A DNA stretch of 21,132 nt from a virus. Positions 955 to 10,840 of the stretch are shown here, piece after piece (position 1 is the stretch's first letter; the number at the start of each line of letters is the position of its first letter). The DNA lies in the IMG/VR virus record IMGVR_UViG_3300009419_000126, positions 1 to 21,132 of that record; one strand, 5' to 3'. The position numbers and the translations under genes are program-made. The notes below the pieces were generated by a model. That model saw only the letters and a program-made list of their open reading frames with translations, ran no database searches and was not told where the DNA came from.

Positions 955-983
955 TTGACAATAAATGATTTTGGTGCTATAAT
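955..983 (+). promoter_or_regulatory. Sigma70-like promoter, TTGACAATAAAT class
   Basis: The -35 box TTGACA is at 955-960 and the perfect -10 box TATAAT at 978-983, with a 17-base spacer. The spacer begins AATAAAT, as in five other promoters of this window. It should drive the 1015-2064 operon. It faces away from the homing endonuclease. Confidence 0.85.
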
Positions 984-1014
984 ATAGTCATAATGTAACA
1001 AAACGAGTCTAACT

Positions 1015-1356
1015 ATGAACATTCAAACAGTCCGTGATAACTTAAAAAATACCATTGCCGGCAAGGAAATGCTGTTAGAGACATACAAGAATCCCAGTAT
1101 CCTGACCAAGCCGATTCGTGAGACAATGGCTCATATGTTGGAAATCAACATTGACGAACTCAAGCGTATCCTCAAGGATGTGGAACAGTGTGTGTTTGAC
1201 TATGACGAATTGAAAGATGACCTGAAAGAAGCCAATGGTCGTGTTCGTCAACTTGAACGGCAAGCATCCGATGACAGTTGGATCACTAACCCAGATCGTA
1301 TGGGCGGCGGCGGTTGGACGGCAGAAGAACTTGACCCTAACAGGGGTTGGAAATGA
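1015..1356 (+). CDS. Conserved-looking phage protein, unknown function
   Basis: A soluble protein of 113 residues, first in an operon of three. Residues 1-85 look helical and charged, with a likely coiled coil in ELKDDLKEANGRVRQLERQA near 64-83. The tail is Gly/Trp-rich (MGGGGWTAEELDPNRGW). No catalytic motif is visible. The ATG lies 31 bases after the -10 box and has only a weak upstream GAG as ribosome site. Its stop codon overlaps the next start by four bases (ATGA), which implies coupled translation. Not recognised as a named family. Confidence 0.8.
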   Translation: MNIQTVRDNLKNTIAGKEMLLETYKNPSILTKPIRETMAHMLEINIDELKRILKDVEQCVFDYDELKDDLKEANGRVRQLERQASDDSWITNPDRMGGGGWTAEELDPNRGWK

Positions 1357-1751
1357 TTGTCCCGGATTTAATCAAAGCCGTTGAAGAAGGAATGAAGGTA
1401 CATACTATGATTAACGCAAAAGAAGCCCGTGAGTTAGTTGAGCAAAGTGATGCCGGCGTGAAAAGACGATTGGAACACATTGAAGTATTGATTAGAACAG
1501 AAGCCTCTTTGGGCAAGCGTGAAGTATTACTGAAGGACTATCTCTACCACGAAGACTGGATGAAGGTTGATAAGAGACCATACCGCGACCCTGAGTTTAC
1601 TCCTGTTCAACGGTTGGTTAAGACTGAACTTGAAAAAGTAGGATTCACTGTGGACATTCACGGATACCCGATCACTATCGGTGGCGGTCTTGGTAGCATG
1701 GATGACAAGCCTCGCGAGGGGCACGATTATGCCATCAGAGTTAGGTGGTAA
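1353..1751 (+). CDS. Phage protein of unknown function, translationally coupled
   Basis: A protein of 132 residues. A TTG two codons earlier is possible, but ATG 1353 has AGGGG six bases upstream and an ATGA overlap with the previous stop, so I prefer it. The first 75 residues look helical (KAVEEGMKVHTMINAKEARE). The remainder is mixed, with the strand-like stretch VGFTVDIHGYPITIGGG followed by a short loop and DYAIRVRW at the C-terminus, suggesting a small alpha/beta domain. No signal peptide or membrane segment is seen. It sits between an unknown gene and a WGR-domain gene in one transcript. Function is unknown. Confidence 0.8.
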   Translation: MIVPDLIKAVEEGMKVHTMINAKEARELVEQSDAGVKRRLEHIEVLIRTEASLGKREVLLKDYLYHEDWMKVDKRPYRDPEFTPVQRLVKTELEKVGFTVDIHGYPITIGGGLGSMDDKPREGHDYAIRVRW

Positions 1752-1752
1752 T

Positions 1753-2064
1753 ATGAAATATAATCACATTGCTTGGTGCAAAGACGAAAAGACAAATGCT
1801 GATAAAGTGTGGGGTGTGATTTGCTTACAAACACCAACATCATCTTACAATGGTGATGGTAAGTTCGTAACCTTCTGGGGTAGGCGCGGCGCGAAACTAC
1901 AGACCAAGATTTGGGAAGGTACTAACTGGGACGCTACCCAAATGTTCCTAAAAAAACAAAGCAAAGGTTATCAGTCAGTTGAAAAAGATGAATTGGATGA
2001 AGTCTATCCAGAGTTCCAGCAAGACTTAGAGAAGACAGCATTCTGGGCGACATTTAAAATATAA
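1753..2064 (+). CDS. WGR-domain-like protein
   Basis: A protein of 103 residues that fits a single WGR domain. The pattern is FWGRRG at residues 41-46, followed by LQTKIWEG and then an Ala-x-x-Met-Phe-x-Lys-Lys segment and KGYQ near 71-74. WGR domains occur in PARPs and in stand-alone bacterial and phage proteins and are linked to nucleic-acid binding. Here there is no second domain. A longer reading from GTG 1681 would overlap the previous gene by 71 bases. The ATG at 1753 follows AGGTGG and starts one base after the previous stop, so I use it. It is the last gene before a hairpin at 2070-2099. Family assignment is by motif only. Confidence 0.72.
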   Translation: MKYNHIAWCKDEKTNADKVWGVICLQTPTSSYNGDGKFVTFWGRRGAKLQTKIWEGTNWDATQMFLKKQSKGYQSVEKDELDEVYPEFQQDLEKTAFWATFKI

Positions 2065-2069
2065 ATTAC

Positions 2070-2099
2070 AAAGGCTCATAAATAACTTTATGAGCCTTT
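2070..2099 (+). terminator. Perfect 11-bp stem-loop after the WGR gene, probable terminator
   Basis: Arms 2070-2080 and 2089-2099 are perfectly complementary, with an 8-base loop. The hairpin lies five bases after a stop codon and 15 bases before the next promoter. It is followed by only TTT and then GGG, a poor U-tract. A terminator is the simplest reading; a regulatory hairpin over the ATG at 2090 is the alternative. Confidence 0.5.
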
Positions 2100-2317
2100 G
2101 GGAAAAACATCAATTGACATTTAAACGAATTGTTGCTATACTACTAACAACATTTGTATTCTTTTGGATGACAATGGATGAGGAGGATATCAGATATCCT
2201 ACAGTCACACTTGAACATAAATGTGAGATAGCATTAAGGTCACTTAATATACCCGAACATGTTAAAAAACAATGTATTAAACTACTGAAAGACAATTATG
2301 AAACTAGCCCAGATTAA
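2090..2317 (+). CDS. Small single-pass membrane protein, start uncertain
   Basis: The frame encodes 75 residues: a basic N-terminus, one hydrophobic segment (about residues 14-27, IVAILLTTFVFFW), then a charged tail with two cysteines (45 and 62) that could form a periplasmic disulfide. The composition looks like a genuine protein. However, ATG 2090 sits inside the right arm of a hairpin, has no good ribosome site, and lies upstream of a consensus promoter at 2114-2142. From that promoter only ATG 2168 (49 residues, no membrane segment) could be used. The end overlaps the next gene by 20 bases. Function is unknown. Confidence 0.5.
   Translation: MSLWEKHQLTFKRIVAILLTTFVFFWMTMDEEDIRYPTVTLEHKCEIALRSLNIPEHVKKQCIKLLKDNYETSPD
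2114..2142 (+). promoter_or_regulatory. Sigma70-like promoter inside the 2090 frame
   Basis: TTGACA at 2114-2119 and TATACT at 2137-2142 are separated by exactly 17 bases, with TG one base before the -10 box (extended -10). It is closely similar to the promoter at 5422. It should feed the envelope/glycosyltransferase operon to 5425. Confidence 0.65.
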
Positions 2318-2819
2318 TGAAGCAATGAATCATCAAATCACTGGTGGCTCTGAATATCAATGGCAATGCTTCCCTGATGCACGATTCTTAGATTACGAAA
2401 GTGATTACGCCCAGGTGTCTATATTGTATAGTACGGTAGATCAAACTGTATACCAAGCAGATACCTCGATTAAACATGATATGTGGTCAAAGGATGAAAA
2501 GCCTTATCGTTGGACTAACCCATTATTTAAAGACGCATATCTTAATGAAGCAAAAGAACGCAATATTGATCCCGACCAAGCTTGGGATGATGTTAAATGG
2601 GTTGAATTAGAAGTAGCCGAAGACTTCCTTGAGAAAGCTCAGGCTATGTTCAATGGCGATGAATGGGATAGTCGCATTCAAGTTCCGTTAGACTTAGATA
2701 ATGACTTGCTATTGCAACTTGCTATGGAAGCACATAAGCGTGATATCACACTAAATAAAATGGTCGAGATTGTATTACAAGAGGCAATCGATCATCGTGT
2801 CAACGAAACATTAGGCTGA
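2298..2819 (+). CDS. Phage protein with C-terminal ribbon-helix-helix-like segment
   Basis: A protein of 173 residues. The N-terminal half (MKLAQINEAM, then EYQWQCFPDARFLDYES) is of a kind often seen in T4-like phages of aquatic bacteria, but I know no function for it. The C-terminal 45 residues read as a ribbon-helix-helix pattern: a short strand (IQVPLDL, near 127-133), a helix (NDLLLQLAMEAHKRD) and a second helix (LNKMVEIVLQEAIDH, 152-166). That suggests DNA binding or dimerisation. The middle is acidic. The start overlaps the preceding frame by 20 bases. The next gene follows after 30 bases with its own ribosome site. Confidence 0.82.
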   Translation: MKLAQINEAMNHQITGGSEYQWQCFPDARFLDYESDYAQVSILYSTVDQTVYQADTSIKHDMWSKDEKPYRWTNPLFKDAYLNEAKERNIDPDQAWDDVKWVELEVAEDFLEKAQAMFNGDEWDSRIQVPLDLDNDLLLQLAMEAHKRDITLNKMVEIVLQEAIDHRVNETLG

Positions 2820-2849
2820 TGCGTTATATAAGTGTAACAGGAGATCGTT

Positions 2850-3206
2850 ATGAAAAAAATTCTAGTAGCATTGGCACTTGCAGTATCAGCGCCTGCATTT
2901 GCAATTGATTGTCGCAGGGGTGTTGACCATAAACATCCCGCATGTTATGGATACAGTTATGTAGATCATCGCCACATGAATCATCACCATCGTCCTACTA
3001 TTGTATACCGAAATAATGATTGGGTGGGCCCAGCTATTGTAAGTGCAATAGGAACCGCAATCGTCATTGATGTAATGAACCGTAGACAAGAAACACAAAT
3101 TGTAGTACAACCGACGGTGGGTCAATCTAATCAAATATGCACGCCGTGGACTGAAACATTGCAATCTGATGGAACGATAACACGGACTCGTACTTGTAAT
3201 CAATGA
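2850..3206 (+). CDS. Exported histidine-rich small protein
   Basis: A protein of 118 residues with a textbook Sec signal peptide (MKK, hydrophobic core, Ala-Phe-Ala at 16-18 as the cleavage site). After cleavage comes a His/Tyr-rich stretch with HRHMNHHHR near residues 41-49, which could bind a metal. Next is a Gly/Ala/Ile segment (about 59-76) that could insert in or lie on a membrane. The tail has two cysteines in CTPWTETLQSDGTITRTRTC. AGGAG is well placed before the ATG. The next gene overlaps by four bases. Likely acts in the host periplasm or envelope; the exact role is unknown. Confidence 0.82.
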   Translation: MKKILVALALAVSAPAFAIDCRRGVDHKHPACYGYSYVDHRHMNHHHRPTIVYRNNDWVGPAIVSAIGTAIVIDVMNRRQETQIVVQPTVGQSNQICTPWTETLQSDGTITRTRTCNQ

Positions 3207-3490
3207 CTGAAATATTATACGGCGTTGGCAACTGGATTAAAGAGGATTGGCGAAGTAATCCTCTTAGATGTTTCTTAGAGATATTGGCTTGGTTCTTAAG
3301 TATCGGTTGTGCTTTTACAATGATGCTTACAGTACCAACTCCCCCTTTCTTAATTCTCTATCCACTATTCATTTTGCAATGTGCAATTTTTGCATGGGCG
3401 TCATGGACACGAAAGAGTTTAGGACTTTTAGCAAACTACATGTTGTTGGTAACTATTGACAGCGTAGCACTTTTTAGGATGATGACATAA
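3203..3490 (+). CDS. Small inner-membrane protein, three predicted helices
   Basis: A protein of 95 residues, ATGA-coupled to the exported protein before it. After an amphipathic N-terminus (ILYGVGNWIKEDWRSNPLR) there are hydrophobic stretches at about 24-43, 46-66 and 74-92, separated by a short WTRKS loop. Similar short membrane proteins beginning with this Trp-rich N-terminus are familiar from T4-like aquatic phages, without known function. Its stop codon overlaps the next start by one base (TAATG). Confidence 0.8.
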   Translation: MTEILYGVGNWIKEDWRSNPLRCFLEILAWFLSIGCAFTMMLTVPTPPFLILYPLFILQCAIFAWASWTRKSLGLLANYMLLVTIDSVALFRMMT

Positions 3491-3813
3491 TGGCAACACA
3501 AATTAAAATGACAAACGATAAAACTGGTATCACCAGAGATGGATACATCGGGTTTAGTTACAGTTATTTTTTTCTAGGCATCTTTAACATGGGATGGTTA
3601 GTACCTTTATACAGAGGTGAATTGATTCTATCTCTTGTATGCTTAGTTATTCATATATTGACATTACCCTTCTGGGTAATTACCTCAGTAGTATTTGGTA
3701 TATTCTTCAACAAATTCTACACTCTTAAATTAATTGAAGAAGGTTATCGTTTTAGTGATAGTGATACAGAACTTGTATCTAGGGCTAAAACAGTTTTAGG
3801 AATGAAACAATGA
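3490..3813 (+). CDS. Small membrane protein, two predicted helices
   Basis: A protein of 107 residues. A polar N-terminus (MATQIKMTNDKTG) leads to hydrophobic stretches at about 21-37 and 46-72, then a soluble basic/acidic tail (KLIEEGYRFSDSDTE). The layout resembles small bacterial two-helix families of the DUF2628 type, but I cannot assign it. It is tied to both neighbours by 1- and 4-base overlaps, so the membrane proteins at 2850, 3203 and 3490 are made together. Confidence 0.8.
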   Translation: MATQIKMTNDKTGITRDGYIGFSYSYFFLGIFNMGWLVPLYRGELILSLVCLVIHILTLPFWVITSVVFGIFFNKFYTLKLIEEGYRFSDSDTELVSRAKTVLGMKQ

Positions 3814-4100
3814 ACATTACAACAGAATGGACTGACAAAGATTGGGATAAGTTTACTGAATGGCTTAAGGGCATGTTAGCAGTAAGCGAAGGTGTAGTCA
3901 CATTCACAAAGTCTGATGGCACTGAGCGAGTGATGAAATGTACACTAGTACCAGATCAATTACCTAAAGTTGAAATTAAAGAGGATGCAAAGCCTCGTAA
4001 AGAATCAACTACAAGTATGCGTGTATTTGATTTAGAGAAAAAAGAATGGCGTAGCTTCACCATTAAGAAAGTCAAGCAAGTTAATTTCACTATAGAATGA
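3810..4100 (+). CDS. DUF2693/WYL_2-like SH3-barrel phage protein
   Basis: A protein of 96 residues matching the pattern of the phage family DUF2693 (WYL_2, Sm-like SH3 beta-barrel): an amphipathic helix with W18, then the strand-turn-strand GVVTFTKSDGTERVMKCTL (32-50), a variable basic linker, and the closing strands MRVFDLEKKEWRSF (70-83) and IKKVKQVNF. The family is thought to act in nucleic-acid or protein binding; no enzyme activity is known to me. ATGA overlaps link it to both neighbours. Confidence 0.75.
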   Translation: MNITTEWTDKDWDKFTEWLKGMLAVSEGVVTFTKSDGTERVMKCTLVPDQLPKVEIKEDAKPRKESTTSMRVFDLEKKEWRSFTIKKVKQVNFTIE

Positions 4101-5425
4101 ACGATTTTGAGCAAGGTAACATTCACTACATGGCTAATGAGTATTACGAAGCCAGTGAATGTTACAGAAGATTTTTAGAACAAGAGCCAAACAATTATGT
4201 TGTATGGCACAATCTTGGCATTGCACTTTGTCAATTGGATCGTGATGAAGAAGCACTACAATGTTTTGAATTACCATGCTCACATAACTATGTTGAAAGT
4301 TGGTTGAGTCGTGGTACTGCACTGCGTAGTTTAGGCAGATACCGTGAAGCACTAATCACATTCGCACATACCTTTGCACTAGACCCCAAACACTCTACTG
4401 CATATAGCAATTACGGAAATACATTGCGTGAATTTGCACTACCAGAACTTGCTATCCCTTTCTTAAAGATAGCACAGGAACTAACACCTGGTAATGTTAA
4501 CTATGAGTTGAACGAATCAGTCAGTCACTTAATGAAAGGTGACTTGATTGAAGGATGGAAAAAATACAATGCAAGATGGTATTATCAAAGTGATGTTAGT
4601 TTTAAGCCTAGCATTCCTGGGCCTGAGTATGACGGCTCTCAAGATATTGTCGGTAAAAGAGTCCTCGTATATTATGAACAAGGATTCGGCGACAGTATAC
4701 AATTCATTCGATTTGCAAAGGTACTAAAAGATAAAGGTGCTGATGTTATTCTGGTAACGAAGCCACAGCTTTATGATTTGTTTAAATACAACTTTCCTGA
4801 GTTTGAAGTACTAAATTCTGATGAACAATTATCACCATATCATTATCATGTAGCATTAATGGATCTTCCTAAATGCTTCGGTACTACTATAGATACTATT
4901 CCATATCCTACTCCCTACTTAGATGTAAATGAAGGATTGAAACAGTTTTGGAAGATAAAGTTAGGACCTAAGACAAAGAAACGAATTGGTTTACTTTGGA
5001 GTCCAAATAAGATTGCCTTCATATCACGCTTTCGTAGAATTGAATTAGAACAACTACTATCCATTACAAGTGATGAATATGAATTTGTAAGTTTGTCGTA
5101 TGAAGTAGATGAACAGATATTGGAGTTGTTATCAAAATACAATGTTAAAACTTTCCATGAAGACTTATCCGGATTCTATAACACGGCAGGATTGATTAGC
5201 CAACTTGACTTGGTTATCAGTATTGATACAGTAATCCCTCACTTGAGCGGAGCAATGGGAGTTCCCACTTGGGTGATGTTAACTGACTATGGTTGTGATT
5301 GGCGTTGGTTTATGAATCGCAACGACAGTCCTTTCTATAACTGCATGAGACTATTCCGTCAGACAAATGGTGTATGGCATACAGTACTTGAATCAATCAA
5401 ACAGGAACTAAAACAGTTCGGTTGA
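4097..5425 (+). CDS. TPR protein with C-terminal GT9-like glycosyltransferase domain
   Basis: A protein of 442 residues. Residues 1-150 form about four tetratricopeptide repeats (for example YYEASECYRRFLEQEPNNYV, and RYREALITFAHTFALDP). After the linker GWKKYNARW (153-161) comes a domain resembling heptosyltransferase-like glycosyltransferases (GT9 fold). Landmarks are EQGFGDSIQFIRF at 194-206, GLLWSPN at 298-304, IDTVIPHLSGAMGVPTW at 376-392, DWRW at 401-404 and DSPFYNCMRLFRQ at 410-422. In bacteria this arrangement transfers sugars to proteins or glycans. In a phage it could modify virion proteins or host surface glycans, or protect DNA. The donor and acceptor are unknown. It ends the operon, and its TGA lies inside the -35 box of the next promoter. 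Confidence 0.87.
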   Translation: MNDFEQGNIHYMANEYYEASECYRRFLEQEPNNYVVWHNLGIALCQLDRDEEALQCFELPCSHNYVESWLSRGTALRSLGRYREALITFAHTFALDPKHSTAYSNYGNTLREFALPELAIPFLKIAQELTPGNVNYELNESVSHLMKGDLIEGWKKYNARWYYQSDVSFKPSIPGPEYDGSQDIVGKRVLVYYEQGFGDSIQFIRFAKVLKDKGADVILVTKPQLYDLFKYNFPEFEVLNSDEQLSPYHYHVALMDLPKCFGTTIDTIPYPTPYLDVNEGLKQFWKIKLGPKTKKRIGLLWSPNKIAFISRFRRIELEQLLSITSDEYEFVSLSYEVDEQILELLSKYNVKTFHEDLSGFYNTAGLISQLDLVISIDTVIPHLSGAMGVPTWVMLTDYGCDWRWFMNRNDSPFYNCMRLFRQTNGVWHTVLESIKQELKQFG

Positions 5426-5450
5426 CACTAAATAAGACTCATGCTATACT
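5422..5450 (+). promoter_or_regulatory. Sigma70-like promoter overlapping a stop codon
   Basis: TTGACA 5422-5427 and TATACT 5445-5450 with a 17-base spacer. The TGA inside the -35 box is the stop codon of the glycosyltransferase. The -10 region (TGCTATACT) is the same as at 2134-2142. It drives the small genes from 5458 on. Confidence 0.78.
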
Positions 5451-5457
5451 ATGGGTT

Positions 5458-5616
5458 ATGAAACGAGAAATACTATCCTTCAAACTTGAGCCGATGAAAC
5501 ATCGTGCCCATCGTGTGTTGTTTGACGAGAACACACCGTTCAAACCTAAGGTTGTGCAATCCAAAAAAGGTGAGTACATTCGTAAACAAAAACACCGTAA
5601 CAAAAATGAGTACTAA
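5458..5616 (+). CDS. Small basic phage protein, start uncertain
   Basis: A very basic protein of 52 residues if ATG 5458 is used. The core HRVLFDENTPFKPKVVQSKK followed by a Lys/Arg-rich tail is the part most likely conserved; it could bind nucleic acid. The TTG at 5422 is part of the promoter and is rejected. ATG 5458 sits about eight bases after the -10 box, so a transcript starting there would be nearly leaderless. ATG 5494 (40 residues) has a weak GAG upstream and a 37-base leader, and is a fair alternative. The end overlaps the next gene by 11 bases. Confidence 0.62.
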   Translation: MKREILSFKLEPMKHRAHRVLFDENTPFKPKVVQSKKGEYIRKQKHRNKNEY

Positions 5617-5857
5617 AATCTTACATGAAGATCACCGCGACTTGCTTGGTCGTGAGGTTAATGAAGGAGATGCTGTTGCATACACACATCATAATAGCCT
5701 TTATGTGGGTAAGGTTATCAAAATCACTCCCAAGCAGGTTCGTGTAATACCCATGTTAACAAATTATCGTAGTGATACGGGTTATCTAAAGTATACAAAT
5801 CAATGTGTATTAATTGGTGGCCCTGAACTTACCGCCCATTTGTTAAAAAACATGTAA
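5606..5857 (+). CDS. Small SH3/KOW-like phage protein
   Basis: A protein of 83 residues. The core LLGREVNEGDAVAYTHHNSL, then LYVGKVIKITPKQVRV, reads as a five-strand SH3/KOW-like barrel, a fold used for RNA, DNA or protein contacts. Similar sequences are familiar from T4-like aquatic phages without known function. An upstream in-frame ATG at 5504 gives a low-quality extension that fully overlaps the previous gene, so I start at 5606. There is no clear ribosome site; the 11-base overlap with the previous gene suggests coupled translation. Confidence 0.78.
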   Translation: MSTKILHEDHRDLLGREVNEGDAVAYTHHNSLYVGKVIKITPKQVRVIPMLTNYRSDTGYLKYTNQCVLIGGPELTAHLLKNM

Positions 5858-5861
5858 AAAT

Positions 5862-5890
5862 TTGACAATAAATCCAATTTCTGTTACAAT
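5862..5890 (+). promoter_or_regulatory. Sigma70-like promoter, TTGACAATAAAT class
   Basis: TTGACA 5862-5867 and TACAAT 5885-5890, 17-base spacer beginning AATAAAT. It lies four bases after the preceding stop and drives genes 5922 and 6052. Confidence 0.82.
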
Positions 5891-5921
5891 ACATGTATTG
5901 AAACGATAAGGAATTGGAAGT

Positions 5922-6068
5922 ATGAAATTCACTCTGATTACAAGTAACGGTAAAGTATTCACTTTCTTTATCAAGGCTGTAGCAGAAACTTATCAACAAG
6001 CATACGGTGGCACTCTGTTCACCGGTTCTATTCTTACTAAGGAAACACAAAATGAAACTTTCTCTTAA
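5922..6068 (+). CDS. Very small conserved-looking phage protein (48 residues)
   Basis: ATG 5922 follows AAGGAATTGGAAG and is the first start after the promoter at 5862. The product starts MKFTLITSNGKVFTF, continues with a predicted helix (KAVAETYQQAYGG) and ends with a short strand and polar tail. This strand-helix-strand pattern recurs in small proteins of T4-like aquatic phages. The last 17 bases overlap the next gene in another frame. It is shorter than usual gene-calling cut-offs but has its own promoter and ribosome site. Function is unknown. Confidence 0.72.
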   Translation: MKFTLITSNGKVFTFFIKAVAETYQQAYGGTLFTGSILTKETQNETFS

Positions 6069-6273
6069 ACAAACCGCCCTGATTCAAACAGTTAAACTGT
6101 TTGGTATTGCCATCCTATTCGCTGGCTTGGCGCATGTGGCCTTTGCCTACTTTACGGTGGTACAGATTGGCTTTGCCTTTGCTGTAGCTGTCTTGGTCGC
6201 CCTAGGCAAGATGGTCTATGATGTTGAACTGAGCAAAGCCGAACATCAGGAAACACTGAGCAAAAAGGATTGA
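6052..6273 (+). CDS. Small membrane protein, two predicted helices
   Basis: A protein of 73 residues starting at ATG 6052, preceded by AAGGAAACACAAA. An earlier start at 6007 has no ribosome site and lies deep inside the previous gene. Hydrophobic stretches at about 15-33 and 37-53 are joined by a short turn, followed by a charged tail (ELSKAEHQETLSKKD). Its TGA lies inside the -35 box of the next promoter. The likely location is the host inner membrane; function is unknown. Confidence 0.78.
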   Translation: MKLSLKQTALIQTVKLFGIAILFAGLAHVAFAYFTVVQIGFAFAVAVLVALGKMVYDVELSKAEHQETLSKKD

Positions 6274-6298
6274 CAATAAATCAAGTTGGGTATATAAT
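6270..6298 (+). promoter_or_regulatory. Sigma70-like promoter, TTGACAATAAAT class, overlapping a stop codon
   Basis: TTGACA 6270-6275 and perfect TATAAT 6293-6298, 17-base spacer. TGA 6271-6273 is the stop codon of the preceding gene. The leader ACAGTTAACTAAAGGACT is repeated after the promoter at 7525. Confidence 0.87.
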
Positions 6299-6330
6299 AG
6301 AATCTTAGACAGTTAACTAAAGGACTAGAA

Positions 6331-6615
6331 ATGACATTGCAAGAAATCAATCGTGCTATCATCGCAGGCACTTTCTCTAACGAAGACCTGAATTCTATCG
6401 GGGATGCTATCAAGTTTGCCCGCAGTCAACTTGCTACCAAAGCCAAGTTTACATTCCGAGCAGGTTCACAAGTGAAGTTCACTAATTCCCGATCTGGTCA
6501 GACTGTACTTGGTACTGTTGAAAAGGTCAATCGTAAATTTATCATCGTCCGTGAAAACGGCAAAGCACTTGGTGGTAACTGGAAAGTGCCCGCTAACATG
6601 TTGCAAGCGGCTTAA
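6331..6615 (+). CDS. Phage protein with C-terminal SH3-like domain
   Basis: A protein of 94 residues with AAAGGACT well placed before ATG 6331. The N-terminal 38 residues are helical (LQEINRAIIAGTFSNEDLNS). The rest is a small beta-barrel pattern: FRAGSQVKFTNSRSGQTVLG, then TVEKVNRKFIIVRENG and WKVPANMLQAA. This arrangement is common in phage SH3/KOW-like proteins and may contact nucleic acid, but no partner is known. It is the first gene of the 6331-7022 operon. Confidence 0.82.
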   Translation: MTLQEINRAIIAGTFSNEDLNSIGDAIKFARSQLATKAKFTFRAGSQVKFTNSRSGQTVLGTVEKVNRKFIIVRENGKALGGNWKVPANMLQAA

Positions 6616-6636
6616 TTTTAACTTCAAGGAAAAATC

Positions 6637-6852
6637 ATGGAAAAAATTATCGTTGTTGTCGGTGCTATTGTTGTCGGTATTGCAGGTCTGTTGCTTCTCA
6701 GTTTTCTGTTGAGTTGGCCCGTGTACATGTTGTGGAATGGTTGCTTGGTCGGCGCTGCTGCAGGTGTAGCTGAAGTAACTTGGTTGCAGGCTTGGGGCCT
6801 GACTGTGTTGTGTAGCTTCTTGTTTAAGTCTAGTGTGAGTAATACAAAATGA
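6637..6852 (+). CDS. Small membrane protein, two predicted helices
   Basis: A protein of 71 residues with AAGGA before ATG 6637. A long hydrophobic run covers about residues 4-32, and a second stretch (WLQAWGLTVLCSFLF) covers 49-63, with an Ala/Gly-rich loop between. Tail KSSVSNTK. An ATGA overlap couples it to the next gene. Similar small proteins are common among T4-like aquatic phages, without known role. A holin-like function cannot be excluded but nothing specific supports it. Confidence 0.78.
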   Translation: MEKIIVVVGAIVVGIAGLLLLSFLLSWPVYMLWNGCLVGAAAGVAEVTWLQAWGLTVLCSFLFKSSVSNTK

Positions 6853-7022
6853 GCAAAGTAAACGAATTGTATATGGATATCGAATTGATGTTGGAAAAAG
6901 GCACCCATCCTGCTACAATCTCCGCAGTGCTTGACGTGCCGGTTTCTTGGGTTTATGAGGTTCTAGATGACGCCGAAAAACCTGATGAAGATTTTAGCTC
7001 CTTTAAAACAGTCAACAGTTAA
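6849..7022 (+). CDS. Small helix-turn-helix-like phage protein (57 residues)
   Basis: ATG 6849 overlaps the previous stop by four bases; TAA at 7020-7022. Residues 18-40 (GTHPATISAVLDVPVSWVYE and the following VL) match a helix-turn-helix spacing: helix, Gly/Asp turn, then a recognition-like helix SWVYEVL. The tail is acidic and probably disordered. A DNA-binding role is plausible but rests only on this pattern. It is the last gene before a 176-base gap. Confidence 0.7.
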   Translation: MSKVNELYMDIELMLEKGTHPATISAVLDVPVSWVYEVLDDAEKPDEDFSSFKTVNS

Positions 7023-7035
7023 TACTGTAGTACTA

Positions 7036-7140
7036 CTTTTTGGTGAACTAAAGTATTCATTTTAATGCCATAGGGACGCTAGGACCGATTCTTTTTGCAA
7101 TAATGCATCTTGATACAGTTCTAGCGTTTTTACCAAAAGT
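7036..7140 (+). other. Nested inverted repeats in the 7023-7198 gap: structured RNA or terminator
   Basis: This fills the largest non-coding gap of the arm. An outer pairing joins ACTTTTTGGT (7035-7044) with ACCAAAAGT (7132-7140), with one bulged T. An inner stem pairs 7076-7084 with 7119-7127 (ACGCTAGGA with TTCTAGCGT, one G-U). A short TGCA-ATAA-TGCA hairpin at 7096-7107 sits inside. A TTTTT run ends the inner stem. It could be a terminator for the 6331-7022 operon or a small structured RNA. No separate promoter was found for it. Confidence 0.4.
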
Positions 7141-7168
7141 TGACAATAAATGGGCATGGTGATATACT
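7140..7168 (+). promoter_or_regulatory. Sigma70-like promoter, TTGACAATAAAT class
   Basis: TTGACA 7140-7145 and TATACT 7163-7168 with a 17-base spacer starting AATAAAT. The first T of the -35 box is also the last base of the outer inverted repeat upstream. It drives gene 7199. Confidence 0.84.
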
Positions 7169-7198
7169 ATGTCTATAGATTGATTAAAGGAGCTTGAA

Positions 7199-7528
7199 AT
7201 GCGTGAACAGGAAAAAGAGTACAAATCTGCCGGTCAATGGGCTTGGTTCGCCGAGCGTGATGCTCGTATGCGTAGTGCAGTCAATAGTACTACTTTTAGT
7301 GATGCTCAAAAGCTAAAAGCCGAACGAGTTAAATTGGCTCTCGAACTGGTCTACCGTGCTGAAAAAGTATTCATTGAATATCGCAAAAAATTCATTAGTG
7401 TAAAAGTACACAAAGCACAAGTCCGTGATCGCAAGGGTCTGGTTCTGTTGGAAATGTGCTACCAAAATGAAGGTCTTGAAAAAGTTAAAACTGCTCAGGG
7501 CGTGACTTACCGAATCCTTAAGGCTTGA
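7199..7528 (+). CDS. Phage protein of unknown function, helical and basic
   Basis: A protein of 109 residues with AAAGGAG before ATG 7199. It is rich in Lys, Arg and Glu and mostly helical for the first 70 residues, with a probable long helix FSDAQKLKAERVKLALELVY. It ends in strand-like KTAQGVTYRILKA. No signal, membrane segment or catalytic motif is seen. It is a single-gene operon: it has its own promoter, and its TGA is part of the next -35 box. Confidence 0.8.
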   Translation: MREQEKEYKSAGQWAWFAERDARMRSAVNSTTFSDAQKLKAERVKLALELVYRAEKVFIEYRKKFISVKVHKAQVRDRKGLVLLEMCYQNEGLEKVKTAQGVTYRILKA

Positions 7529-7553
7529 CAATAAATGGGTTTGGGTATATAAT
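7525..7553 (+). promoter_or_regulatory. Sigma70-like promoter, TTGACAATAAAT class, overlapping a stop codon
   Basis: TTGACA 7525-7530 and TATAAT 7548-7553, 17-base spacer. TGA 7526-7528 ends the preceding gene. The leader shares ACAGTTAACTAAAGGACT with the promoter at 6270. Confidence 0.87.
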
Positions 7554-7585
7554 CATTACATAGACAGTTAACTAAAGGACTCAAA

Positions 7586-7810
7586 ATGACCAAGCAATTC
7601 GTACAAGTTAGTGCCCAAAAAGACAGCAACAATTTTGCTCACTGTAGCAACCTGAGCCTCATGGCAAATGAGGGTCTGACTGCCACGCAAGCATTGCGTA
7701 AATTGCAGGTTATGGCTGATGAGTACGCATTGAACGGGTACACAATCGAGTGGATCCGGGAAGATTTCGATGCCGTATACGAGGAAATGTACGGCGAATT
7801 GTTTGCCTAA
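7586..7810 (+). CDS. Small acidic phage protein, unknown function
   Basis: A protein of 74 residues with AAAGGACT before ATG 7586. A short beta-like N-terminus (KQFVQVSAQKD) is followed by two likely helices (LTATQALRKLQVMADEYALN and WIREDFDAVYEEMYGELF). Acidic overall. Compact and soluble, with no recognisable domain. It is expressed as a single-gene unit between two near-identical promoters. Confidence 0.78.
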   Translation: MTKQFVQVSAQKDSNNFAHCSNLSLMANEGLTATQALRKLQVMADEYALNGYTIEWIREDFDAVYEEMYGELFA

Positions 7811-7812
7811 AT

Positions 7813-7841
7813 TTGACAATAAATGGTTTTGGGCATATAAT
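7813..7841 (+). promoter_or_regulatory. Sigma70-like promoter, TTGACAATAAAT class
   Basis: TTGACA 7813-7818 and TATAAT 7836-7841, 17-base spacer. Nine bases after and including the -10 box match the promoter at 6270 (TATAATAGAATCTTA). It starts two bases after the previous stop. Confidence 0.87.
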
Positions 7842-7873
7842 AGAATCTTAAACAGTCGAACAAAGGAAACAAA

Positions 7874-8296
7874 ATGGCTTACTTCAATCAAGAACGCAAA
7901 CAGGAACGTGCTCCAGTTATCAAGGCTATCCTGAAAAAGTACGGTGTCAAGGGTTCGCTTGCTGTTCGCAACCACAGTACTTTTGTATTGAACATCAAGT
8001 CGGGTTCTATTGACTTTATTGAAAATTATATCAAGACCGATGCCGATAAAAACTACGGCAACAAAATGTCTGCTGACCAAGTTGCGTACATTCGCAAGAA
8101 TCAGGCCTTGGATGTAAACCCTTACTGGTATCAAGAACACTACACGGGTAAGGCTCTTTCTTTCCTGAAGGAAGTATTCAAAGCAATGAATGCAGGCAAT
8201 CACGACAACTCGGACGTACAAACCGATTACTTTGATGTGGGTTGGTATGTGGATGTAAACATTGGACAATGGAACACTCCGTATATTGTCCAATGA
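7874..8296 (+). CDS. Conserved-looking phage protein, unknown function
   Basis: A protein of 140 residues with the leader AAAGGAAACAAA before its ATG. It opens with a helical segment (QERKQERAPVIKAILKKYGV) and a strand pair (GSLAVRNHSTFVLNIKSG). It ends in an unusually conserved-looking aromatic stretch, HDNSDVQTDYFDVGWYVDVN then IGQWNTPY, with many Asp, Trp and Tyr. I recall related hypothetical proteins in large tailed phages but no function. It is soluble with no signal peptide. Confidence 0.82.
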   Translation: MAYFNQERKQERAPVIKAILKKYGVKGSLAVRNHSTFVLNIKSGSIDFIENYIKTDADKNYGNKMSADQVAYIRKNQALDVNPYWYQEHYTGKALSFLKEVFKAMNAGNHDNSDVQTDYFDVGWYVDVNIGQWNTPYIVQ

Positions 8297-8320
8297 ATTG
8301 AATAATGGGTAACATAATGG

Positions 8321-8349
8321 TTGACAACAATGTCCTTTTGTGTTATCAT
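8321..8349 (+). promoter_or_regulatory. Sigma70-like promoter for the 8414 operon
   Basis: TTGACA 8321-8326 and TATCAT 8344-8349, 17-base spacer. Unlike the other promoters the spacer does not start AATAAAT, and the -10 box lies inside a dyad (8341-8356). Confidence 0.72.
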
Positions 8350-8356
8350 TATAACA
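8341..8356 (+). promoter_or_regulatory. Operator-like dyad over the -10 box
   Basis: TGTTAT (8341-8346) and ATAACA (8351-8356) form a perfect 6-base inverted repeat around CATT, spanning the -10 hexamer and the expected transcription start. The placement suits a repressor site. It could also be a chance result of AT-rich promoter DNA. Confidence 0.4.
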
Positions 8357-8384
8357 GTGCTGTGAATTTAGCGGCACGTTTTTT
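8357..8384 (+). terminator. Intrinsic terminator/attenuator in the 5' leader of gene 8414
   Basis: Stem GTGCTG 8357-8362 with CGGCAC 8372-8377 (one G-U pair), 9-base loop, followed by TTTTTT at 8379-8384. It starts right at the predicted transcript start of the 8321 promoter and lies 30 bases before the gene. It therefore reads as an attenuator of this promoter, or a terminator of the upstream unit that the promoter overlaps. Confidence 0.55.
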
Positions 8385-9079: not shown

Positions 9080-10840
9080 TTACCAACTTGTTGTACCAGC
9101 AAACTTAGACCAAGTGTCCGTTGCTACACAAACATACAGGTTTCCACCACTATCGTATGCAGCCTGACCTGCTATTCCCGTACTTGTGTTCGCTATAGGA
9201 GCAGTGCTCCAAATTACAGTATTAGCATTGATTACTGGTAGGGCAACAAATGTGCCGTTACCTGTAAGAACATTTGAAACGTTACCATCTAAGTTAATTG
9301 TTGCGATATTACCGACTGAAGGGACTGTTGGAATAGCGACATATGTGCCATTGCCGGTTAATAGATTGCTTACATTTCCATCTAAGTTAATCGTTGCGAT
9401 ATTACCAACAGTCGGGATAGCAATGTTAGCAAATACACCATTACCTGCTAACCAAGTTTGACTGTTACCATCTAGGTTTAATGTTGCGATGTTGCCAACA
9501 GTTGGTACAACTGGGATAGCAACATAGGTTCCATTACCAGTTAGTAGATTACTTACATTTCCATCTAAGTTTAATGTTGCAATGTTGCCAACTGAAGGAA
9601 TAGCAATGTTAGCAAATACACCATTACCTGCTAACCAAGTCTGACTGTTACCATCTAAGTTAATTGTAGCTATGTTGCCAACTGTTGGGACAGCAACATA
9701 TGTACCATTACCGGTTAATAAATTACTTACATTACCATCTAAGTTAATGCTTGAAATATTACCTAATGATGGAGCACCGGTTAAGTTAGCGTAAGGCACG
9801 TTACTTAAGTTAGCACCATCGGCAGTAATGATACCTGTTGTGACAATTGTATTAGACCCAAATGCTGCCAATAGCGATACTACATTGCTATTACCATAAC
9901 TACTATTTGCGTCTGCACCAAATGTTCCATCGCCTCTCAATACATTTGAAATGTTACCATCTAAGTTAATTGTTGCGATGTTACCAACTGAAGGAATAGC
10001 AATATTAGCAAATACACCATTACCTGCTAACCAAGTCTGACTGTTTCCATCTAGGTTTAATGTTGCTATGTTGCCAACTGTCGGAACTACTGGGATAGCG
10101 ACATATGTTCCATTACCAGTTAGTAAATTACTTACATTTCCATCTAGGTTTAATGTTGCTATGTTGCCTAAACCAGAAACATTTGCGGCCGCTACACTAA
10201 ATGCCGTATTAGCGACATTAGCATTAGCTACAAAACCGGAAACATTAGCACCGGCAATAGCAGTCAGTGCTTGACCGTTACCTATGATATTACCTACACT
10301 TACATTACCAGTAGTTGTTATTGTGTTACTACCAAATGCATTTAGTAAGGAAACAACATTGCTATTACCATATGCGCTGTTTGCATCTGCTCCCCATGAG
10401 CCATTTCCTCGCAACACATTACTCACATTACCGTCTAAATTAATTACTGCAATATTGCCCGCCGTAGTACTAACGGTTACTGTACCAGAACCACCTGCTG
10501 AAGATGATACTATATTAACACCGTTTCCTGCGAGTATAGCATAAACTCCAGTTTGATTTACTACAGTTTGTCTGATAGTTTGGTCAATTGCGCTAACATA
10601 AGTGGTTCCTTGAGAACTATATACTGTTACCACGTCTGCTGGCTGATTGTTTGCACTAGTAGTTAGTGTAACATTATTTGCATTAACACTAGCAGTTGTT
10701 CCTACAAAAATAGCCTCACCGTCAGAAACAGTAGATTTCCCATTAGCTATAATAACTGATTGAGCCAGTTGACTCTCTATACTGCGTAATACAGTTGGAT
10801 CACTTAGTCCAACTGTTGGTTGTGTTCTTGAGGTTGCCAT
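9080..10840 (-). CDS. Repeat-built tail-fibre/adhesin-like structural protein
   Basis: A protein of 586 residues, low in charge and rich in Gly, Asn, Thr, Val and Ala. An N-terminal region (1-125) precedes ten copies of a ~30-residue unit, GNIAT-(L/I)-NLDGN, followed by either VSNLLTGNGTYVAIP or SQTWLAGNGVFANIAIP. A second module, YGNSNVVSLLxAFGSNTI, occurs twice (157 and 315). The end is a short domain, AAYDSGGNLYVCVATDTWSK. Such repeats suit a trimeric beta-structured fibre or decoration protein on the virion. GGAG precedes the ATG, and a late-type ATAAATAC box lies 22 bases upstream of the start. It shares its repeat with the next gene upstream (10949-13159). The exact virion position and receptor are unknown. 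Confidence 0.85.
   Translation of the reverse strand: MATSRTQPTVGLSDPTVLRSIESQLAQSVIIANGKSTVSDGEAIFVGTTASVNANNVTLTTSANNQPADVVTVYSSQGTTYVSAIDQTIRQTVVNQTGVYAILAGNGVNIVSSSAGGSGTVTVSTTAGNIAVINLDGNVSNVLRGNGSWGADANSAYGNSNVVSLLNAFGSNTITTTGNVSVGNIIGNGQALTAIAGANVSGFVANANVANTAFSVAAANVSGLGNIATLNLDGNVSNLLTGNGTYVAIPVVPTVGNIATLNLDGNSQTWLAGNGVFANIAIPSVGNIATINLDGNISNVLRGDGTFGADANSSYGNSNVVSLLAAFGSNTIVTTGIITADGANLSNVPYANLTGAPSLGNISSINLDGNVSNLLTGNGTYVAVPTVGNIATINLDGNSQTWLAGNGVFANIAIPSVGNIATLNLDGNVSNLLTGNGTYVAIPVVPTVGNIATLNLDGNSQTWLAGNGVFANIAIPTVGNIATINLDGNVSNLLTGNGTYVAIPTVPSVGNIATINLDGNVSNVLTGNGTFVALPVINANTVIWSTAPIANTSTGIAGQAAYDSGGNLYVCVATDTWSKFAGTTSW
9236..10165 (-). repeat. Nine ~90-base repeats encoding GNIATxNLDGN units
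   Basis: The DNA encodes nine of the ten units of the fibre protein, interrupted once near residues 309-358. Two unit types (VSNLLTGNGTY and SQTWLAGNGVF) alternate. Repeats are near-identical at protein level but differ at silent positions (for example ccatctaagttaat versus ccatctaggtttaat on the + strand). That indicates older duplication under protein-level selection. Confidence 0.85.

Follow-up and report, generated by a model that had tools for sequence, protein, structure and literature searches.

Why does one short string recur, always in the same orientation, in front of a series of small genes in a viral genome? We addressed this question in a stretch of 21,132 bases, the IMG/VR record IMGVR_UViG_3300009419_000126 (the whole stretch is hereafter called the window), where the 12-mer TTGACAATAAAT opens each of a set of promoters that we term cassette promoters (P). 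An original prediction, made from these letters alone, had noticed the repeats and likened them to promoter-plus-gene cassettes inserted one after another. We consider it probable that these promoters form a sigma-70-type family of T4-related jumbo phages, and that the cassettes act as recombination linkers for promoter-gene modules.

Repeated promoters in the window

An exact match to TTGACAATAAAT was found at 955, 5862, 6270, 7140, 7525 and 7813, in every case on the plus strand, while 0.04 copies were expected in the window by chance and none of 100 shuffles gave six. Exactly 17 nucleotides (nt) beyond each copy lies a -10 box, which reads TATAAT, TACAAT or TATACT (Table 1). The six identical 12-mers of the original prediction, each 17 bases before a TATAAT-like box, were thus all in place, as were the leader strings it had described as shared, ACAGTTAACTAAAGGACT by the copies at 6270 and 7525 and TATAATAGAATCTTA by those at 6270 and 7813. 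Its proposal that a single small gene stands behind each copy was right for 7140, 7525 and 7813 but not for 955, 5862 and 6270, each of which heads two or three genes.

A seventh copy, with a single mismatch, is present at 5422. This copy and all six exact ones have the layout of a sigma-70-type promoter, i.e., a TTGACA -35 box and a TATAAT-like -10 box separated by 16-18 nt. In all six exact copies, the -10 box and the ATG are 30-32 nt apart. At 5422, the -10 box stands 7 nt before the ATG of gene j. With a gap of 6-7 nt, transcription may start at the first codon itself, so that gene j may have a leaderless mRNA.

Gain and loss of modules at the 12-mer

No record among 50,697 phage records matched the window by megablast, i.e., no near relative or close isolate was found there; a 776-amino-acid (aa) protein also gave no match in the search for a close isolate, and the cassette used as a query returned weak partial matches only. 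Relatives, in records of up to 524 kb, were gathered by protein searches. Among these, the gene order near gene s varies like beads on a string (Table 1). An alignment of orthologous loci had been proposed as a way to see cassettes gained and lost, and the orders in the window and in records G008, L129, L138 and L178 indeed differ. The notion that promoter-plus-gene cassettes were inserted singly was borne out: modules are gained and lost singly, the joints fall at the 12-mer, and promoter and leader accompany the downstream gene.

Two joints could be read base by base. In record L133, the left flank is that of window promoter 7140 (57/60), whereas the right side is that of promoter 7525 (spacer and -10 box 17/17, leader 28/32, gene r 56/60); the crossed comparisons gave 16/60 for the left flank and 13/60 for the gene. 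The only stretch shared by L133, promoter 7140 and promoter 7525 is TTGACAATAAATGGG. The joint in G008, in turn, combines the left flank of 7525 (53/60) with gene s (leader 27/32, gene 54/60). Recombination between direct promoter repeats, by which a promoter-gene module is removed or added, yields exactly these two structures. Two insertion/deletion events in the window are joined exactly at the 12-mer.

These observations lead us to propose the following mechanism. The 12-mer would comprise the -35 box and the beginning of a conserved spacer in a sigma-70-type promoter that host RNA polymerase most likely reads early in infection. Each copy with its leader would drive one to three small genes and travel with them. 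Since the same 30-60 bp stand in the same orientation before many unrelated genes, copies can recombine; such recombination, probably by the phage's RecA/UvsX-type system, would add or remove a promoter-gene module while every gene keeps a promoter, and its joint would fall at TTGACAATAAAT, as for the two events in the window.

Table 1. Cassette promoters, associated features and gene orders (P, cassette promoter)
Feature	Position or record	Strand	Remark
Cassette promoter, TTGACA-ATAAAT-GATTTTGGTGC-TATAAT	955..983	+	heads open reading frames 1015-1356, 1407-1751 and 1729-2064
Cassette promoter, one mismatch (TTGACACTAAAT, -10 TATACT)	5422..5450	+	-10 box 7 nt before ATG 5458 of gene j
Cassette promoter, -10 TACAAT	5862..5890	+	heads genes l (5922-6068) and m (6052-6273)
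Cassette promoter, -10 TATAAT	6270..6298	+	heads genes n, o and p; TGA stop of gene m within TTGACA
Structured element, ~90 nt	7051..7139	+	directly upstream of promoter 7140; also before cassettes in relatives
Cassette promoter, -10 TATACT	7140..7168	+	gene q (7199-7528)
Cassette promoter, -10 TATAAT	7525..7553	+	gene r (7586-7810); TGA stop of gene q within TTGACA
Cassette promoter, -10 TATAAT	7813..7841	+	gene s (7874-8296)
Gene n, 94 aa	6331..6615	+	family behind cassette in 9/14 records
Gene q, 109 aa	7199..7528	+	promoter-gene module, gained or lost
Gene r, 74 aa	7586..7810	+	G008 orthologue with own cassette ~32 kb off, other strand
Gene s, 140 aa, PHROG 10415	7874..8296	+	family behind cassette in 11/14 records
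Gene order	window		P-n-o-p-P-q-P-r-P-s
Gene order	G008		P-n-p-P-q-P-s; r with own P elsewhere, other strand
Gene order	L129		P-n-p-P-r-P-s
Gene order	L138		P-n-p-P-s
Gene order	L178		P-q-P-n-P-s

Shuffling at cassette junctions

To quantify module exchange, we compared 13 records that hold 309 cassettes, a cassette being defined as TTGACA followed by a 6-mer with at most one change from four dialect forms (plus two forms in record G016) and a -10 box with at most two changes. Genes were called with a home-made, codon-based procedure, in which starts behind any TTGACA-N16-18 promoter received a bonus that was equal for both classes of site, cassettes and other TTGACA-N17 sites. Co-directional junctions with a cassette were kept between records in 37% of 260 comparisons, while cassette-free junctions of the same genes were kept in 62% of 417. 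The corresponding junction means were 0.30 (95 cassette junctions) and 0.59 (113 cassette-free junctions), a difference matched by none of 10,000 permutations; these comparisons share genomes and are not independent.

When a junction was broken, the downstream gene kept a cassette in the other genome in 104/165 cassette cases versus 39/1038 cassette-free ones, and the upstream gene still preceded a cassette in 71/165 versus 46/1038. In broken pairs, the leader went with the downstream gene (0.67 versus 0.44 at random), and so did the spacer (0.59 versus 0.45), but the 25 nt before the -35 box did not (0.33 versus 0.29). It is shown statistically that a driven module exchanges the sequence on its left freely but retains the spacer and leader with which it started.

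Conservation of the extended motif in relatives

A listing of every TTGACA-N17-TATAAT in related large phages revealed that the motif is longer than the 12-mer and reads TTGACA-ATAAAT-SS-nTTTGGGTR-TATAAT. We scanned 50 related records, 40 picked by protein homology and 10 (G041-G050) picked for the motif. The 12-mer occurred in 30 of the 50, with 285 matches versus 2 for the reversed pattern and up to 41 copies per record, and in 20 of the 40 picked by protein homology. The original prediction had asked for a motif search beyond the window and named absence as its refutation; with the 12-mer in 30 of the 50 records, it was not refuted. In 257 Gb of cellular contigs, the extended motif is very rare: three stretches, all from metagenome-assembled genomes, carried it.

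We also fixed one half of the spacer at a time, and the counts that follow are among the matches listed. When only TTTTGG was fixed, 176 sites in 120 stretches had mainly TTAAAT (51), ATAAAT (34), CAAATT (13) or ACAAAT (12) as the other half; when only ATAAAT was fixed, T was found at spacer positions 10-12 in 105, 123 and 128 of 177 sites. An ATG followed 25-35 nt past the -10 box in 125/176 and 132/176 sites, compared with 29/119 and 6/74 in controls. Single sites in which a scrambled AT-rich 6-mer follows TTGACA are common, as expected if the repeats were due to chance in AT-rich DNA. However, stretches with one site made up 72/73 and 119/120 for scrambled controls versus 88/120 and 89/120 for the real halves, and ATAAAT occurred at least twice in 32/120. 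Chance was refuted by the 0.04 copies expected against the six observed and by the presence of the 12-mer in 30 of 50 related records, and we regard its probability as negligible.

In the 13-record set, 11/309 cassettes fell inside called genes, compared with 72/172 other TTGACA-N17 sites, and a gene start followed within 100 nt for 251/309 versus 86/172. Among those 251, the start lay 26-34 nt away in 189, a spacing that would be compatible with transcription starting 6-8 nt past the -10 box, and 6 nt away in 13, a possible leaderless class; records G008, G041 and G012 contain other possible leaderless sites, with the ATG 6 nt past the -10 box. The TGA of the upstream gene lay inside TTGACA in 75/309 cassettes, and in 68 more a stop ended 0-5 nt before TTGACA. 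In the window, such TGA stops occupy 5423-5425, 6271-6273 and 7526-7528. The bases before the -35 box are A-rich; information per position is high across the spacer apart from a drop around position 9, and to the left of the -35 box it declines to almost nil over about six bases.

The original prediction had also allowed that the 12-mer is merely a mark of recent duplication. Promoters 6270, 7525 and 7813 have similar leaders, as would be expected from a recent tandem amplification of a promoter-plus-gene unit in this phage, but the driven genes are mostly unrelated, which contradicts this explanation: only 23/228 are paralogous to a gene that a further copy drives in their own genome. Moreover, the 12-mer is kept in deeply diverged phages (30/50 records), its conserved halves surround freer positions, with spacer position 9 varying between conserved blocks, and each genome has its own dialect. 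We therefore rate a recent amplification as very improbable.

Could promoter strength alone explain this conservation? The spacer of the trp and tac promoters begins TTGACAATTAAT. The spacer might be a sequence preferred by the host polymerase, kept or arisen for strong early expression and with no role in recombination, and the perfect -35 box, the 17-nt spacing, the near-perfect -10 box and the A-rich bases before the -35 box all agree with this. In addition, residue R451 of Escherichia coli sigma-70 senses spacer sequence near -18, according to the accessible text of PMC7229825. Strength nevertheless does not explain why leaders are shared, how the recombinant joints arose, why broken junctions are in excess or why phages differ in dialect, and we find it unlikely as the sole explanation.

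Genome-specific spacer dialects

The 6-mer that follows TTGACA differs between genomes even before orthologous genes. Ahead of gene s orthologues, it is ATAAAT in the window, G008, G041, G042, G012 and G023, but ATTAAT in G029, AATAAT in G024 and TTAAAT in G039, while G028 has a different second half. In more distant loci the -35 box changes as well: record G002 uses TTGACC with AATAATTCCCAATTTGC-like spacers (TTGACC in 20/58 promoter-like sites), and altered -35 boxes are also seen in L181 (TTGACC-AATATTCACCGAAATGC), L163 (TTGACC-AAAAATCATTTTGGTTG) and others. Such genome-specific dialects suggest that some factor may read the spacers, and they thereby point towards the other option of the original prediction, a binding site for a further factor, although no such factor was found.

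One such factor could be a lineage-specific phage regulator that represses or activates every early promoter by binding between its -35 and -10 boxes, so that the spacer is an operator and the dialects track the specificity of the regulator. Consistent with this idea, orthologues in different genomes have the spacer typical of their own genome, and several promoters at one locus share a dialect, including the altered -35 box. A dyad test on 12 typed dialect sequences gave shuffle P values of 0.002-0.58, with dyads in the dialects of G028 (0.002), L196 (0.02) and L163 (0.03). However, the window spacer contains no significant dyad (P = 0.43, or 0.10 with A at position 9), nor do the dialects of L181, L151 and G002; a palindromic operator thus fits some dialects but not that of the window. 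Furthermore, no candidate regulator was identified, and orthologue pairs agreed in their 6-mer in 134/351 cases versus 78.7 expected from genome frequencies, which indicates that part of the dialect pattern is inherited with the gene. We consider an operator less likely than not. In the G028 dialect, the consensus CAATAAAT-CCA-ATTTATTG and the end of the -35 box form an 8-bp inverted repeat that is near constant while the leaders vary; sites of this dialect occur in record G028 and in L364 near 11240, 11523 and 11861 (minus strand).

A broader idea, which we offer tentatively and with considerable doubt, is that each lineage has a private promoter code. The spacer would be read by a lineage-specific factor and would change in concert over tens of promoters, while the same blocks serve as joints for host-takeover genes; a new gene would be usable only with, or behind, a promoter of the right dialect.

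The reader of the promoters and the genes they drive

Among 14 related records, 11 encode the T4 capsid family Gp23 (gp23) and 10 a RecA/UvsX-type protein. No Sigma70_r2 domain and no RNA_pol_Rpb2_6 domain (RNA polymerase beta) was found in any of the 14, some of which are fragments in which absences mean little. A phage-encoded RNA polymerase or sigma factor was accordingly set aside as the reader, and the host enzyme, together with its primary sigma factor, is the likely one; it most likely reads the cassettes early in infection.

Genes behind cassettes include those for an rIIA homologue, a MoxR-type ATPase, a VWA/metallopeptidase protein, a phosphatase-like protein and a GIY-YIG protein. 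Several other features were seen nearby. A homing-endonuclease-like gene (PHROG 314) at 125-868 of the window (minus strand) diverges from promoter 955. A 586-aa protein at 9080-10840 (minus strand) is encoded by DNA of many imperfect repeats and matches only PHROG 21017, at its C terminus. A 269-aa open frame at 7568-8377 (minus strand), antisense to genes r and s, was rejected as spurious by codon score. In a relative, G041:113949-138410 holds an open frame of ~8,150 codons.

Hairpins and comparison with known promoter repeats

In the window, a hairpin at 2069-2100 lies 3' of the three-frame unit headed by promoter 955. A terminator-like hairpin was found within 60 nt upstream of 8/309 cassettes (1.6 in shuffles), in a scan of loops of 3-8 nt that does not reach a longer, recurring hairpin; a composite promoter-terminator was thus ruled out as the general form. 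Folding detected a strong upstream hairpin at 31/309 cassettes versus 26/449 control sites. The structured element before promoter 7140 consists of a GC hairpin and then a long hairpin that ends in an A-run/T-run and has a conserved loop. The window copy matched no Rfam family, and others occur at L298:12219-12308, L329:10236-10325 and other places. A model built from seven copies found further loci, and 12 of the 16 checked (some from the same contig) run straight into TTGACAATAAAT.

The closest known counterparts are the PeSL (promoter early - stem loop) elements of T4-type phages, which are associated with gene shuffling (Arbiol 2010 and Comeau 2014, as cited in the accessible text of PMC4503421). 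As described there, PeSLs resemble the cassettes in being early-type promoter sequences that recur between the genes of T4-related phages and flank genes shuffled among relatives; the present cassettes likewise border shuffled modules in genomes whose relatives carry gp23. In contrast to PeSLs as described there, 301/309 cassettes have no short terminator hairpin, a minority have the longer hairpin element, joints are traceable to the 12-mer, and the spacers have dialects. By analogy, the cassettes appear to behave like PeSL promoter linkers, generally without the short terminator hairpin.

According to the accessible part of PMC1524935, every T4-like phage has an early-promoter logo of its own, in which an A-rich element precedes a GTTTAC-like -35 box. 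The early promoters of T4, RB69, RB49, 44RR, RB43 and Aeh1 described there resemble the cassettes in their per-genome consensus, A-rich bases before the -35 box, many copies before novel open reading frames and sigma-70-type -10 box. They differ in the -35 box, which is TTGACA in all cassettes as defined, and that part of the paper reports no genome-specific conserved block across the whole spacer. The class I intergenic repeats of halovirus HF2 are also promoter repeats (56-58 bp) between early genes, but of the archaeal TATA type, and module exchange at them is not described in the accessible text of PMC8707807. In archaeal viruses, a shared strong early promoter, again of another type, marks small genes of unknown function, and such motifs have been used to discover anti-defence genes (PMC11065993, from the portion available). 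A literature search with limited subscription coverage found neither genome-specific spacer dialects nor module joints at the -35 box. New relative to known linkers are a spacer that is conserved in genome-specific form, the absence of a short terminator from most copies and the placement of joints at the 12-mer.

Strength of the linker interpretation

Several points weigh against reading the cassettes as recombination linkers of T4-related jumbo phages. Kinship with T4 rests on the relatives and not on the window, and we infer both the early timing and the identity of the reader. The gene calls are home-made and favor starts behind TTGACA-N16-18 promoters. Counts are not independent, because of overlap among the records (a single contig underlies G008 and L139, and G011 and G012 share promoter spacings). 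With a terminator-like hairpin at only 8/309 cassettes, the PeSL definition does not apply in general.

The flank comparisons also call for caution. In an ungapped comparison of 660 distinct sites, the gene was the same and the left flank changed in 998 pairs, the left flank was the same and the gene changed in 120, and both were kept in 73; these counts look stronger than they are, and the ungapped left-flank test is weak alone. At similar gene starts, and again ungapped, the left flank differed in 99, 91 and 69% of cassette cases but also in 82, 63 and 42% of cassette-free ones. The contrast was clearer for flanks kept at 80% or more (0/223, 12/171 and 5/39 for cassettes versus 59/884, 109/446 and 88/177 for cassette-free sites). 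Some of the shuffling may be due to the variability of early regions, although the local control, i.e., neighboring cassette-free junctions, argues against this explaining all of it.

Implications

The cassettes show a way in which very large phages can trade small, mostly uncharacterised genes with expression intact, and they narrow the joint of such a trade to a dozen bases. The promoter is, moreover, a practical bait: gene n, gene s, the phosphatase-like protein, the MoxR and VWA proteins and rIIA are good candidates for a role in early host takeover or in counter-defence. If it is true that a factor reads the dialects, they would amount to a regulatory code that differs in its entirety, promoters included, between related phages.

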